From an uncultured Metabacillus sp. (GTDB lineage: Bacteria > Bacillota > Bacilli > Bacillales > Bacillaceae), in NCBI RefSeq assembly GCF_947503125.1, contig NZ_CANNCR010000011.1:1-64000 (forward strand): a stretch of DNA of 64,000 nucleotides, written 5' to 3'. How positions within the stretch are numbered: the stretch's first letter is position 1; each line of letters begins with the position of its first letter. Positions 9,631-64,000 of the stretch are shown here, piece after piece. The notes beneath the pieces are model-generated. The model was given only the letters and a program-made list of their open reading frames with translations, was not told the origin of the DNA and made no database searches. A program made the translations under genes and the position numbers.

Positions 9631-9828
9631 TTAGAAACGACCCATTGATTGTTGAGCCATTGCAACTAGTCGTTTCGTAATTTCTCCACCAACTGAGCCA
9701 TTAGCGCGTGAAGTTGTTTCAGCACCAAGGTTCACACCAAACTCTGATGCAATTTCATACTTCATTTGTTCAATAGCTTGTTTAGCACCTGGAACAACTA
9801 ATTGATTGCTGTTATTATTACGTGCCAT
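9631..9828 (-). CDS. Alpha/beta-type small acid-soluble spore protein
   Basis: A 65-residue DNA-binding spore protein that coats the chromosome in dormant spores and protects it from UV and heat. The family pattern is complete: YEIASEFGV, containing the GPR protease cleavage site, and the C-terminal [14 protein letters not shown] block. The minus-strand ATG follows AAGGAGATGATTTT, a strong binding site. Such genes are transcribed by SigG in the forespore; I could not identify a convincing SigG promoter. It shows that the organism forms endospores. Confidence 0.95.
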
Positions 9829-59712: not shown

Positions 59713-60753
59713 ATGATAACTGCTAAAGCACGAGCTGTTGATGGTCCTGACAAACCGTTTCGAGCTGCTGAAATTAAACGACGCGACCTTGATTTGCATG
59801 ATGTTCTAATTGAAATTAAATATGCGGGCATATGTCATTCTGACATTCATACTGCACACGGCGAATGGGGTCCAGTGAACTATCCTCTCGTACCTGGACA
59901 TGAGATTGCGGGGATTGTCACAGATGTAGGAGCCGAGGTCACAAAGTACAAGGTCGGTGACCGGGTAGGGGTCGGATGTATGGTTGACTCCTGCGGCGAA
60001 TGTGAGAATTGCCGTAAAGGAGAAGAACAATACTGTCTCAAAGGAAATATCCCTACTTATGCAGGTGTTGACAAATACGGCGAGCCAACCCAAGGCGGCT
60101 ATTCTACCCACATTGTCGTAACGGAGGATTTCGTAGTCAGAATTCCTGACAGCATTGAGCTTGACGTTGCAGCACCATTACTTTGCGCAGGTATTACAAC
60201 ATATTCACCGCTAAATCATTGGAAGGCTGGTCCAGGTAAAAAAGTAGCTGTTGTTGGTTTGGGCGGTCTTGGACATATGGCTGTCAAGATTGCACACGCC
60301 ATGGGTGCAGAAGTTACAGTTCTTTCTCAATCATTGAAGAAAAAAGATGATGGCTTGCAATTCGGTGCAGACAACTACTATGCGACAAGCGACCCTGAGA
60401 CATTTACTAAACTTGCTGGTACATTTGACCTGATCATTAACACGGTAAGTGCAAGTATCGACATTAGTGCTTACCTCTCACTGTTAACGCTGGATGGTAC
60501 GCTAGTCAATGTTGGTGCGCCTGCAGAGCCATTGGCAGTTAATGTGTTCTCTCTTATCGGTCACCGTCGTTCATTTGCAGGTTCAATGATTGGCGGCATC
60601 CGTGAGACTCAGGAAATGTTGGATTTCTGTGCAAAACATAACATTGTTCCTCAAATTGAAGTGATAACAGCCGATCAAATTGATGAAGCATACGAACGAG
60701 TATTAGCTTCAGATGTGAAGTATCGTTTCGTGATTGACACCAGCACAATGTGA
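59713..60753 (+). CDS. adhA: Zinc-dependent alcohol/aldehyde dehydrogenase (AdhA-like)
   Basis: Medium-chain dehydrogenase of 346 residues. The catalytic zinc site is in GICHSDIH and PGHEIAG; four structural-zinc cysteines lie in [15 protein letters not shown] and the preceding stretch; the NAD(P) fold is [15 protein letters not shown] (about 178-192). The ATG follows AGGAGG. It reduces aldehydes or oxidises alcohols; with the AdhR-like regulator the likely role is detoxifying reactive aldehydes. It is followed by a strong terminator. Confidence 0.92.
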
Positions 60754-60785
60754 GTTGCGTCAATGATAGGATTAAATGGTCATTA

Positions 60786-60820
60786 AAAGGTGTCCTAAAG
60801 CCTAGCTTTAGGACACCTTT
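60786..60820. terminator. Terminator after adhA
   Basis: Perfect 16-bp stem AAAGGTGTCCTAAAGC / GCTTTAGGACACCTTT with loop CTA. It insulates the following secE-secY unit. Confidence 0.9.
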
Positions 60821-60915
60821 ATATTTTGGCTTTTAAACTCAAGTTAACGATAGAATGTAAATGAAATTTCTCGAGTACTGAAGAATACCTATATAAAAAA
60901 GAGAGAAAACAAAAT

Positions 60916-60972
60916 AATTCTACTTTTCTATAAAAAATTTCTATTTCTTTAATTATGAAAGCGTTTTACAAT
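60916..60972 (+). promoter_or_regulatory. Promoter of secE2-secY2, with cre site
   Basis: TGAAAGCGTTTTACA (60956-60970) is a strong cre match overlapping the -10-like TACAAT (60967-60972). Sixteen bases upstream lies TCTATTTCTTTAA (60940-60952). The whole block aligns with 62766-62825 before the GH30 gene, with the same spacing between both elements. This points to shared control. Confidence 0.75.
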
Positions 60973-61031
60973 GGGGTATATATATATTTAAAAGAAAAAT
61001 TCTACTATTTAAAAAATAGGGGGTGGTTGTT

Positions 61032-61256
61032 ATGAATAAGGAGTTGCTAAAAGCAGATAGAATCATAGAAAAACGAGGTATTGTTAAGTTTTTCGCAGAT
61101 ATTAATCGCGAAATGAAGAAGGTTAGTTGGCCAAAGAGCAAGGAATTGACAAGATATACAATAACAGTTTTATCCACAGTTATATTTGCCAGTGTGTTTT
61201 TTGCCATTATTGATTTTTGTATTTCTTTTATTATTCGTTTTATGATGAATAACTGA
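61032..61256 (+). CDS. secE: SecE, second copy
   Basis: Single-span translocon subunit of 74 residues: an N-terminal amphipathic helix (GIVKFFADINREMKKVSWPK, the SecE signature) and one membrane helix (about 45-68). It clamps SecY in the membrane channel. ATG 61032 lies 6 bases after AGGGGGTGG; GTG 61023 sits inside that site. In Bacillus the housekeeping secE lies beside nusG and rplK, not secY, so this is an unusual location. It forms a two-gene unit with the secY copy. Confidence 0.9.
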   Translation: MNKELLKADRIIEKRGIVKFFADINREMKKVSWPKSKELTRYTITVLSTVIFASVFFAIIDFCISFIIRFMMNN

Positions 61257-61304
61257 TTAAACTAATGTTAGTTAAATAGAAAAAAGAATTGAACTTAAAG
61301 TGAA

Positions 61305-61370
61305 GCTGACAAATTCGCTGCTTTTGAAGAAGCAATTGAATCTGCTGGCACTATAGCTGAGGTGACCTAA
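61305..61370 (+). pseudogene. rplO: Decayed 3' end of rplO (ribosomal protein L15)
   Basis: The frame reads ADKFAAFEEAIESAG and TIAEVT, ending at TAA 61368-61370. It resembles the C-terminus of B. subtilis L15 as I recall it (ANKFSASAKEAVEAAG, GTAEVI), with one residue missing and a frameshift before it. In ribosomal spc operons rplO lies directly before secY. Here the stop overlaps the secY start (TAATG). The remnant shows where this secY copy came from. Confidence 0.7.
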
Positions 61371-62662
61371 TGTTTAAACTAATCGCTAATTTCATGCGTG
61401 TAAGTGATATTCGAAACAAAATCTTCTTCACCCTTTTAATGTTAATTGTCTTTCGTATTGGTACATTCATTCCTGTGCCGAATGTCAATGCTGATGTGTT
61501 ACAAGCACAAGATGAACTGAATGTATTCGGAATCTTAAACACATTTGGCGGAGGTGCTTTATATAACTTCTCGATCTTAGCGATGGGGATTATGCCTTAT
61601 ATTACAGCATCGATCATCGTCCAGCTCTTGCAGATGGACGTTGTGCCAAAATTCACTGAATGGTCAAAGCAAGGTGAAGTTGGGCGGCGCAAGCTCGCAC
61701 AATTTACAAGATACTTTACGATCATATTAGGTTTCATCCAGGCGTTAGGTATGTCCTACGGGTTCAATACCCAGTCAGGCGGATTGTTAATCGAAAATCC
61801 TGGTATATGGACGTACTTATTAATTGCGATTGTCTTAACAGCTGGTACAGCATTTTTAATGTGGTTAGGAGAACAGATCACCTCCAAAGGTGTTGGAAAC
61901 GGAATTTCCATTATTATCTTTGCAGGGATCACAGCAGGCATTCCCTCAACGATGAACCAAATATATGCACAACAATTCCAAGATGCCGGCGATCAGCTTT
62001 TCATCCGAATTGTAACAGTTGCCATTCTGGTATTGGCTATTTTAGCCGTTATCGTTGGGGTTATCTTCATCCAACAAGCACTTCGCAAGATTCCAATTCA
62101 GTACGCTAAGCGTTCCGGGAACAACAATATGGGAGGAGGTCAAACAACTCATCTGCCTTTAAAAGTGAACCCTGCTGGTGTTATTCCTGTTATCTTTGCG
62201 GTGTCATTTATTATTACTCCACCGACGATAGCAGCCTTTTTTGGTCCGAATGATGTGACGGATTGGATCCAGAAAACATTTGATTACACTCAGCCTATAG
62301 GGATGATCATCTATATCGCATTAATTATTGCTTTCACATACTTCTATACATTTGTTCAAGTGAACCCTGAGCAGATGGCAGAAAATTTGAAGAAGCAAGG
62401 CGGCTATATACCTGGTATCAGACCAGGTAAGAATACGCAGGAATATGTTACAAAGGTATTATATCGTCTAACTCTTGTCGGTTCTCTTTTCTTAGCAGTT
62501 ATAGCTGTTCTTCCTGTTTTCTTCATTCAATTTGCTGATCTGCCGCAATCTGCACAGATTGGCGGAACAAGCTTGTTAATCGTTGTCGGGGTTGCCCTTG
62601 AAACAATGAAACAGCTTGAAAGTCAGCTAGTGAAACGTCATTATAAAGGCTTTATTAAATAG
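61370..62662 (+). CDS. secY: SecY, second copy of the protein-translocation channel
   Basis: Ten-helix channel of 430 residues, the canonical Bacillus length. Typical blocks are present: the N-terminus MFKLIANFMRVSDIRNKIFF, the plug region FGGGALYNFSILAMGIMPY, EWSKQGEVGRRKLAQFTRY, GEQITSKGVGNGIS and the cytosolic loop PEQMAENLKKQGGYIPGIRPG. It looks like a fully functional SecY and not the divergent SecY2 of glycoprotein export systems. GAGGTGA (61360-61365) precedes the ATG inside the rplO remnant. No other ribosomal genes, adk or map follow, so it is a relocated duplicate rather than the housekeeping gene. With secE it may form an extra translocon. Confidence 0.92.
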   Translation: MFKLIANFMRVSDIRNKIFFTLLMLIVFRIGTFIPVPNVNADVLQAQDELNVFGILNTFGGGALYNFSILAMGIMPYITASIIVQLLQMDVVPKFTEWSKQGEVGRRKLAQFTRYFTIILGFIQALGMSYGFNTQSGGLLIENPGIWTYLLIAIVLTAGTAFLMWLGEQITSKGVGNGISIIIFAGITAGIPSTMNQIYAQQFQDAGDQLFIRIVTVAILVLAILAVIVGVIFIQQALRKIPIQYAKRSGNNNMGGGQTTHLPLKVNPAGVIPVIFAVSFIITPPTIAAFFGPNDVTDWIQKTFDYTQPIGMIIYIALIIAFTYFYTFVQVNPEQMAENLKKQGGYIPGIRPGKNTQEYVTKVLYRLTLVGSLFLAVIAVLPVFFIQFADLPQSAQIGGTSLLIVVGVALETMKQLESQLVKRHYKGFIK

Positions 62663-62736
62663 GGAGGATACGGGAGGCTCCAAGGAGAATAGTATAAAAA
62701 TAGACTGTCGTTCTTAAAATGACAGTCTATTTTTTA
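62663..62736 (+). terminator. Terminator after secY2, preceded by an adk-like ribosome binding site
   Basis: A perfect stem AAAATAGACTGTC / GACAGTCTATTTT (from 62697 and from 62721) with a run of T ends the unit. Right after the secY stop, AGGGAGGATACGGGAGG (from 62662) is a good ribosome binding site without a gene. In spc operons adk starts here, so it may be adk's orphaned binding site. Confidence 0.8.
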
Positions 62737-62765
62737 GACCATTTTTTCGATTTGAAGGGATCGAA

Positions 62766-62825
62766 ATAATTTGCACTTTTCTCAAAAGAATGTCTATTTC
62801 TTTAAAATTGAAAGCGTTTTATATT
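62766..62825 (+). promoter_or_regulatory. Promoter of the GH30 gene, with cre site
   Basis: TCTATTTCTTTAA (62793-62805) and the cre TGAAAGCGTTTTATA (62809-62823) repeat the secE2 promoter with identical spacing, and ATAATT and CTTTTCT further up are also shared. TATATT (62820-62825) is the -10 candidate, in the same position relative to the cre. The leader of about 280 bases to 63108 shows no gene. Confidence 0.75.
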
Positions 62826-63108
62826 AGAACTAAATAGTTGATAAAACATTTTAAAAGAAATAGTGAAAAGCTCATTTTGTCATTACTATTAGTCTTTTTA
62901 TAAAATGAAACCCGTTTCAAAGAATTATCTTTATTATTCTAAAGATTACATTTCATGCTCTTCTATCTAAGCATTACCTATGAGGGGGTGATAGGTTCAG
63001 TACAAAATTGATTGTTTAAAAGGAAAAACGAAATTAATTATCAATGTAATTAACAGGGAAGAAACCGTCATTTTCTCTGTATTACCTAACGAAAGGGGAG
63101 TTTATTTA

Positions 63109-64000
63109 ATGTTACAAGTTGGGTTTATTAAAAAGTTACTCATTTCTTGTATCCTTGTATTCCTTATAACGGGAAGTATTTTACCGGCTTTACCTACAGT
63201 GACGAAAGCGGAGGAGGCAGAAAATGAAGTGAGTTCCATTTCAGAGTCCATAACACTAGATCCAAGCTATCAACATGAACCGTTTGATGGCTGGGGAACG
63301 GCACTTGTATGGTTTGCAAATGTAACAGGCGGCTGGCCTGATGAACTTCGAAATCAACTTGCAGATGATCTATTTGGTGAGGAAGGACTGAATTTTAATA
63401 TTGCCCGCTACAATATTGGCGGTGGAGATTCTCCTGAAACAGAGCCATATATGCGGAAAGGTGGAGCCGTTCCAGGTTATTGGAATCGTCCTGCCGAATA
63501 TGGCCCGCCAGAGGGGAATACAGAAGAATGGACCGAGCAAGAAAATTGGTGGGATCCTGAAAATCCTGAGCACTGGAATTGGGAAGCTGACGCAAACCAG
63601 CGTTGGTGGGTAAGTGCAGCAAAGGCGAGAGGAGCTGATACGTTTGAGGCATTTTCAAACTCACCGCCTTATTTTATGACGCAAAGCGGTTATGTATCAG
63701 GTAACTGGAATCCATGGGATGACAATATCAAGCCAGATCAATTTGGAAATTTCGCCACATACTTAACTTCAGTGGTGGATCATTTACAAAAGGAAATGGA
63801 TATAGAATTTAAAACTCTTTCACCTGTAAATGAACCAAATACCGGATATTGGCGAGCGAAAGGCAGACAGGAAGGATCGAACTGGTCTCCAGCTTCACAA
63901 GCTAAAATTATTAATGAAGTTAAAAAACAATTAGCTGAAAAAGGTCTCGGCACAGTCGTATCAGCTATGGATGAAACAAATCCGCAAAAATTCAGACAAA
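63109..64000 (+). CDS. Secreted GH30-family glycoside hydrolase, 3' end outside the window
   Basis: Open frame of 297 codons running off the right edge. A signal peptide of about 35 residues (ending TVTKA) is followed by a GH30 barrel: HEPFDGWGTALVWFANV, FNIARYNIGGGD, FEAFSNSPPYFMTQSG and the acid/base Glu in LSPVNEPNTGYW. The GRQEGSNW stretch resembles bacterial endo-beta-1,6-galactanases of GH30, though other specificities (xylanase, glucosylceramidase-like) cannot be excluded. AAAGGGGAG (63092-63100) precedes the ATG by 8 bases. It shares its promoter type with secE2-secY2. Confidence 0.85.
   Translation, partial: MLQVGFIKKLLISCILVFLITGSILPALPTVTKAEEAENEVSSISESITLDPSYQHEPFDGWGTALVWFANVTGGWPDELRNQLADDLFGEEGLNFNIARYNIGGGDSPETEPYMRKGGAVPGYWNRPAEYGPPEGNTEEWTEQENWWDPENPEHWNWEADANQRWWVSAAKARGADTFEAFSNSPPYFMTQSGYVSGNWNPWDDNIKPDQFGNFATYLTSVVDHLQKEMDIEFKTLSPVNEPNTGYWRAKGRQEGSNWSPASQAKIINEVKKQLAEKGLGTVVSAMDETNPQKFRQ

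Follow-up and report, generated by a model that had tools for sequence, protein, structure and literature searches.

The stretch of DNA analysed here, called the window throughout, comprises positions 1 to 64,000 of contig NZ_CANNCR010000011.1 from an uncultured species of the genus Metabacillus (assembly GCF_947503125.1), whose genome is referred to as G000. Near its end, inside a region of polysaccharide genes, lies an intact second pair of genes for SecE and SecY, the core subunits of the protein translocon. Both genes are on the + strand with a gap of 113 nucleotides (nt) between them: secE2 (61032-61256) is an intact frame of 74 amino acids (aa), and secY2 (61370-62662) is an intact frame of 430 aa. 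SecE2 scores 64.3 bits with the Pfam SecE model and 71.6 bits with TIGR00964 (cut-off 27.55), and SecY2 scores 505.8 bits with TIGR00967 (cut-off 253.6) over positions 1-414 of 414, which places both among the canonical subunits. Assignment of SecY2 to the accessory SecY2 proteins was rejected by score, since it reaches 201.6 bits with TIGR02920 and 208.5 bits with NF009082, below the respective cut-offs of 249.6 and 353.

Searched as a whole, the G000 genome gave two matches each for SecY (E 3.9e-116 and 1.4e-115) and SecE, all above cut-off. The housekeeping secY is located in the spc operon, between rplO and adk, and the housekeeping secE before nusG; with these copies elsewhere, the pair in the window is a true extra pair. 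This bears out the claim of an earlier note on this DNA that the secE-secY pair is complete and a second one, and excludes the possibility, named there as a refutation, that the genome has no other secY. Homologous pairs recur in three other species of the genus (genomes G001, G012 and G016), so the pair in G000 is no chance reading. An assembly artefact or contamination might be suspected from the 244 contigs of the G000 assembly, and from those of G001 and G016, which break inside secY at contig ends and leave their secY copies partial or uncertain. This explanation is nevertheless extremely improbable: the single-contig assembly of G012 holds both secY copies in full, 89% alike, and the two copies of G000 differ from each other, each with its own flanks.

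Upstream of the pair is an alcohol-dehydrogenase gene (59713-60753; PF08240/PF00107), followed by a terminator-like hairpin with a 16-pair stem (60786-60820, + strand). Another terminator-like inverted repeat, AATAGACTGTC/GACAGTCTATT with a T run (62699-62735, + strand), was recognised by eye after secY2; its loop is 11 nt, and the hairpin scan, which allowed loops of 3-8 nt, does not list it. The end of secY2 lies 447 nt before a gene for a GH30-type glycosidase of 1067 aa (PF14587, 8e-26; signal peptide by eye), which occupies 63109-64000 on the + strand and continues to position 66312 of the contig. The pair thus lies, as had been noted earlier, between a terminator and a secreted glycoside hydrolase. 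The region is rich in polysaccharide genes: the window itself encodes two GH43 proteins along with GH52 and GH10, and GH30, GH31 and GH66 follow it. An Rfam scan of 60700-63150 returned no RNA at the gathering threshold.

Origin and gene conversion of secY2

Immediately before secY2, 78 nt (61292-61369, + strand) survive from the 3' end of rplO, with a blastn identity of 81.7% over 82 columns; this remnant includes GAGGTGA, resembling a ribosome-binding site, for secY2. Against the spc operon of G000, the remnant gives E 5.8e-16 in G000, 5.5e-12 in G016 and 4.6e-7 in G001, and in G012 it is recognisable by eye only in the last bases before secY; as a control, positions 1-61200 of the window gave no rplO match. 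The remnant indicates that secY2 was copied from the spc operon together with its ribosome-binding site. It also corrects the earlier description of the region, which holds as to its richness in polysaccharide genes and needs this trace of a ribosomal gene added to it. The unit brings together a paralogue of secE and a piece of the spc operon, rplO'-secY, behind an element of the type that precedes the GH30 gene. The four SecE2 proteins form one clade with 99/99 support on a long branch (38 SecE rows in the tree, 31 of them different), and the simplest reading is that the four Metabacillus genomes share the pair as a unit from one origin. A plasmid origin was rejected: SecE2 matched two plasmid records, both annotated secE, with 64.9% and 50% of residues identical across 77% and 62% of its length.

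The first 81 of the 1293 nt hold 13 of the 23 differences between the housekeeping gene (secY1) and secY2 of G000, a clustering with P 6e-11 (the limit at nt 81 was chosen after the differences had been seen). The other 10, in nt 82-1293, lie in a tract homogenised with the housekeeping secY (61451-62670, + strand), which is 99.2% identical to it, and the identity of the two copies ends about 8-10 nt past the stop codon. The body of secY2 is only 83.9% identical to that of G012 secY2, and a tree of secY bodies makes secY1 and secY2 of G000 sisters at 100/99. The unconverted 5' end (first 85 columns) is 92.9% identical to the secE2-linked secY of G016, compared with 84.7% to G000 secY1. This pattern is that of gene conversion, by which secY1 has overwritten secY2 in G000. 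Recent transposition of an unchanged secY copy is unlikely, since both the rplO remnant and the start of secY2 are of greater age and are shared with G016. Concerted evolution extends only in part to G001, where the available 916 nt of secY form a mosaic of 90-98% identity in the first 600 nt and 98-100% after, and the copies of G012 are unhomogenised, with bodies 89.1% identical and thus differing by 11%.

The secY copies of G012 have a ratio of nonsynonymous to synonymous substitution rates (dN/dS) of 0.046 at a synonymous divergence (dS) of 0.53, and secY2 of G000 and G012 differ by dS 1.08 with dN/dS 0.037. Together with the conversion patterns, these values indicate a duplicate of long standing that is constrained and, in some lineages, has been reset, and sequence comparison places both genes of the pair under purifying selection. 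Between genomes, secE2 evolves at dN/dS 0.10-0.25 (four pairs), compared with 0.06 for secE1 of G000 and G012; the secE1 pair of G012 and G001 has too few changes for dN/dS.

Unlike secY2, SecE2 has not been homogenised with its housekeeping counterpart. Over residues 15-71 it shares 65% identity with SecE1, and its N terminus is about 14 residues longer than that of housekeeping SecE, an extension found in all four SecE2. Such divergence, together with the long branch of the SecE2 clade and the clustering of several SecY differences of G012 in one loop after KIPIQYA, would fit a specialised translocon, in which the extended SecE2 provides a different partner, client set or affinity and SecY2 remains generic. 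This explanation is considered rather unlikely. Only 7 of 430 residues separate SecY2 from SecY1 in G000, where secY2 was reset by gene conversion, the motif REMKKVSWPK is kept, and the faster evolution of SecE2 may reflect weaker constraint.

The start of secE2 differs among the genomes. The first codon at ribosome-binding-site spacing is ATG in G000 (window 61018-61034), and the same position holds ATA in G016 and ATT in G012 and G001 (L019 about 9775-9791; L021, L022). Three of the four orthologues may use a non-standard start codon.

Distribution of the pair and its upstream element

The pair occurs in 4/21 genomes of the genus and 4/80 of the family, always in the same four, and each genome with SecE2 has a second secY. 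No other family genome has a second SecY above cut-off; G070 gave a sub-threshold match, and no SecY was found in G018 and G068. A search of named relatives kept at least 80 SecE loci, 79 of them with nusG, which marks them as housekeeping, and one a SecE2, in Metabacillus bambusae.

A GH30 gene (E 1e-30 or better) is present in 5/21 genus genomes, namely the four with the pair and G014. In G012 and G001, the pair and GH30 share a contig at a distance of about 34 and 39 kilobases (kb), and the pair follows a 2126-aa arabinanase and a further arabinanase-like frame, respectively. In G016, a secY half on contig C43 (L020, 9379-10110) lies next to GH30 and precedes it, and secE2 is found on contig C113 with other neighbours. 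The order read on C113 is secE2-secY-adk (L021, 10004-11667), and this join is probably a misassembly across an identical secY tract.

An element of about 90 nt precedes both secE2 and the GH30 gene in G000. Before secE2 it lies at 60912-61004 (+ strand) and aligns with the region upstream of GH30 (E 1.3e-12), where alignment and motif match place it at 62764-62853 (+ strand). The core, TTCTATTTCTTTA-N4-TGNANGCG, is found without mismatch at 60939-60963 (+ strand) before secE2 and with one mismatch at 62792-62816 before GH30. Overlapping the secE2 element is a sequence, TGAAAGCGTTTTACA (60956-60970, + strand), which we take to be cre-like from the consensus and which matches it imperfectly.

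The core pattern was built from these two sites, so the informative result is that no further close sites exist. At up to three mismatches, the window has two matches where 0.03 are expected, and the 5.4-megabase genome of G000 has 8, compared with 5 control matches; only the sites at secE2 (0) and GH30 (1) have 0-1 mismatches, and the other 6 have 3. A genus-wide search at up to two mismatches gave 11 matches, compared with 3 for the control. Such cores lie before secE2 in G000, G012 and G001 and before GH30 in G000, G016 and G014, and the remaining five are distributed as two in G003 and one each in G008, G014 and G018. The secE2 element of G016 has 3 mismatches, so that the element precedes secE2 in all four genomes with the pair. 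As evidence for a polysaccharide regulon, the element gives a mixed picture: it is common to secE2 and GH30 in the window, and in G016 by way of contigs C113 and C43, and in G012 and G001 it lies at secE2 with no close copy at GH30.

A proposed polysaccharide-linked translocon and its precedents

Sequence and setting show a canonical translocon pair that now belongs to a polysaccharide gene cluster, and its function is suggested by that context. We give a probability of about one half to the reading that this duplicated core translocon provides polysaccharide-responsive extra channel capacity. When polysaccharide is present and glucose absent, the putative regulator of GH30 would also switch on secE2-secY2. 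SecY is unstable when unpaired, and for this reason SecE2 would be supplied along with SecY2; the new channels would then assemble with housekeeping SecG and SecA, and the added channels would raise export capacity for the enzymes of the cluster. The earlier note had proposed an inducible extra housekeeping-type translocon tied to polysaccharide use. The conservation of the pair, its position among polysaccharide genes and the element shared with GH30 agree with this proposal, of which induction and export remain the predicted part. A fuller version, in which the second translocon is polysaccharide-induced and catabolite-repressed and is made solely during secretion of a particular group of glycosidases, conversion keeps SecY2 generic while SecE2 diverges, and a second secY in genome G107 (see below) is an independent invention, is offered tentatively, at somewhat less than even odds.

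The SecYEG channel is usually treated as constitutive, single-copy and coupled to ribosome synthesis. If extra capacity is indeed supplied by the pair, it would follow that natural secretion can be limited by the number of channels, and the pair would represent an evolution-tested module for enzyme production. Moreover, with SecY nearly unchanged, the effect of SecE variants on the choice of exported proteins could be tested directly.

Several observations weigh against this reading. Secretion of giant enzymes, to which the earlier note had appealed, is a weakened argument: 15/21 genus genomes match the 2129-aa arabinanase of the window (E 1e-100 or better), 11 of these 15 are without the pair, and giant enzymes alone therefore do not go with it. 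Presence of the pair follows GH30 (5/21 genomes, 4 with the pair) better than the arabinanase. Furthermore, four genomes with one origin amount to one event, which makes the association of pair and cluster statistically weak. Of the shared promoter that had been proposed, the element core common only to secE2 and GH30 in G000 stands, but the secE2 element has no sigma-70-like promoter, and that of GH30 has one weak match, fewer than in shuffles. The GH30 genes of G012 and G001 are without a close core motif. Upstream of GH30, G012 has a diverged relative of the G000 region (E 7e-10), which does not align with the secE2 element of G012 itself, and for G001 no such alignment was found. Genome G014 has GH30 and the element without the pair. 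Second secY genes that stand alone are found in other Bacillales. Within G000, secY1 and secY2 have dN/dS 0.17 at dS 0.05, higher than elsewhere, and 4/7 of the SecY1/SecY2 replacements fall within the first 19 residues. Finally, secYEG overexpression raised secretion of AmyL and not of AmyS, according to PMC4482152.

Some of these observations would also suit a passive duplicate, a redundant copy that is tolerated without benefit: the pair is patchy within the genus, G014 carries the element without it, and two genomes, G012 and G001, have not retained the motif at GH30. A passive duplicate is regarded as improbable, given that the complete copies of G000 and G012 have stayed open despite the divergence of their secY2 genes at low dN/dS, and that the element upstream of secE2 is conserved in all four genomes. 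The G014 element itself aligns best with the secE2 region of G012 (4e-24) and also with the GH30 region of G000 (9e-20), and may be the leftover of a lost pair.

Only in G000, G016, G001, G012 and G014 does the arabinanase match extend to the C terminus; in nine other genomes it covers about 1,880 residues and stops near residue 1,880, and in G013 it covers about 320 residues. The version with a complete C terminus is thereby restricted to the five genomes that carry GH30.

Among known systems, the housekeeping SecYE of Bacillus belongs to the same families, and the body of secY2 shares 99.2% of its DNA sequence with the G000 housekeeping copy. Unlike the housekeeping arrangement, with secY in the spc operon and secE next to nusG, the window has secE and secY as one unit away from the ribosomal genes and behind an element shared with a glycosidase, and its SecE2 is diverged and longer. 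The accessory SecA2-SecY2 systems of streptococci and staphylococci likewise feature a second Gram-positive SecY beside a gene for a secreted protein. In contrast to these, the SecY2 of the window falls below the accessory cut-offs and brings its own SecE, and no genes other than secE2 and secY2 separate the dehydrogenase gene from GH30.

In B. subtilis, secretion of alpha-amylase rose with an artificial secYEG operon (Mulder 2013, as cited in PMC4482152), so that published engineering agrees with a gain in amylase secretion from extra SecYEG, though not for all enzymes. Extra channel subunits are combined there, co-expressed to lift secretion, much as proposed for the window; that operon is man-made and has secG, whereas the unit in the window is natural and without secG. 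The VemP-secD2-secF2 system of Vibrio, as outlined in part of PMC11470409, resembles the window in being a regulated second set of Sec components, but it concerns auxiliary SecDF under translation-arrest control, whereas the window has the channel itself in a carbohydrate-type setting. No second secE-secY pair tied to polysaccharide use was found among the matches listed in a literature search, which covered open-licence PMC papers only and is no proof of absence.

Second SecY genes elsewhere in Bacillales

An order-wide sample of 397 Bacillales genomes contains 15 with two or more SecY matches (counted by eye, G000 included), and 10 of these 15 belong to one family, f26, from which 15 genomes were sampled. 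A recheck of the 14 genomes other than G000 left three without two intact copies: G206 (split), G273 (relic) and G441 (sub-threshold). With G441 left out, 12/13 of the non-spc secY loci read have no secE within the slice; one housekeeping locus was read alongside them. The exception is G393, whose secE-secY pair (L207, C20, 6796-8327) is distant, at 39.7% and 48.0% identity to the pair of the window, and its SecY, at 416.7 bits, scores as canonical with the model. Copy-to-copy SecY protein identity is 70.9-87.0% in 10/11 pairs and 51.1% in G393, which indicates that none of these pairs is homogenised. The second secY genes of other Bacillales are therefore ectopic and canonical like that of the window, and differ from it in being mostly without secE and in showing no homogenisation. 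Within this sample, a paired secE-secY reset by conversion is apparently peculiar to these Metabacillus.

G107, from another family, has a second canonical SecY (476.4 bits; L205, C32, 56-8326) that is 87.0% identical to its housekeeping copy. The gene starts about 145 nt after that of an amylase/pullulanase, which measures at least 2269 aa and carries S-layer domains; the start of the enzyme gene lies before the stretch read, and another gene with S-layer domains is found further downstream. Among 7 genomes of its genus, three of which are 62-90% complete, G107 alone has an intact second copy, and that of G206 is split. As a single case, this pullulanase-linked SecY suggests convergence with Metabacillus.

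The duplicates could also represent an intermediate stage, in which an ectopic copy is replacing the housekeeping channel. In G273, the gene between rplO and adk survives as a decayed secY relic interrupted by several stops (L211, C10, 8851-9941), and the sole intact secY found sits at an unrelated locus (L210), so the ectopic gene seems to have replaced the housekeeping one there. The only SecE match found in the G016 assembly, SecE2, likewise speaks for replacement. For the pair of the window, replacement is very unlikely, as G000 and G012 keep an intact secY1, and G000, G012 and G001 keep both secE genes intact. The slices of G016 (about 1.1 of 6.9 megabases) gave only one 119-nt match to the first 44.9 kb of G000 contig C26, at its start; they hold no 5' part of the spc-secE region, and the missing housekeeping secE of G016 is most likely an assembly gap.

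In f26, 9/15 sampled genomes have an intact second secY with no secE nearby (L197-L199, L201-L204, L206, L208). Several of these genes adjoin others that resemble, by eye, homoserine dehydrogenase or fatty-acid oxidation genes.

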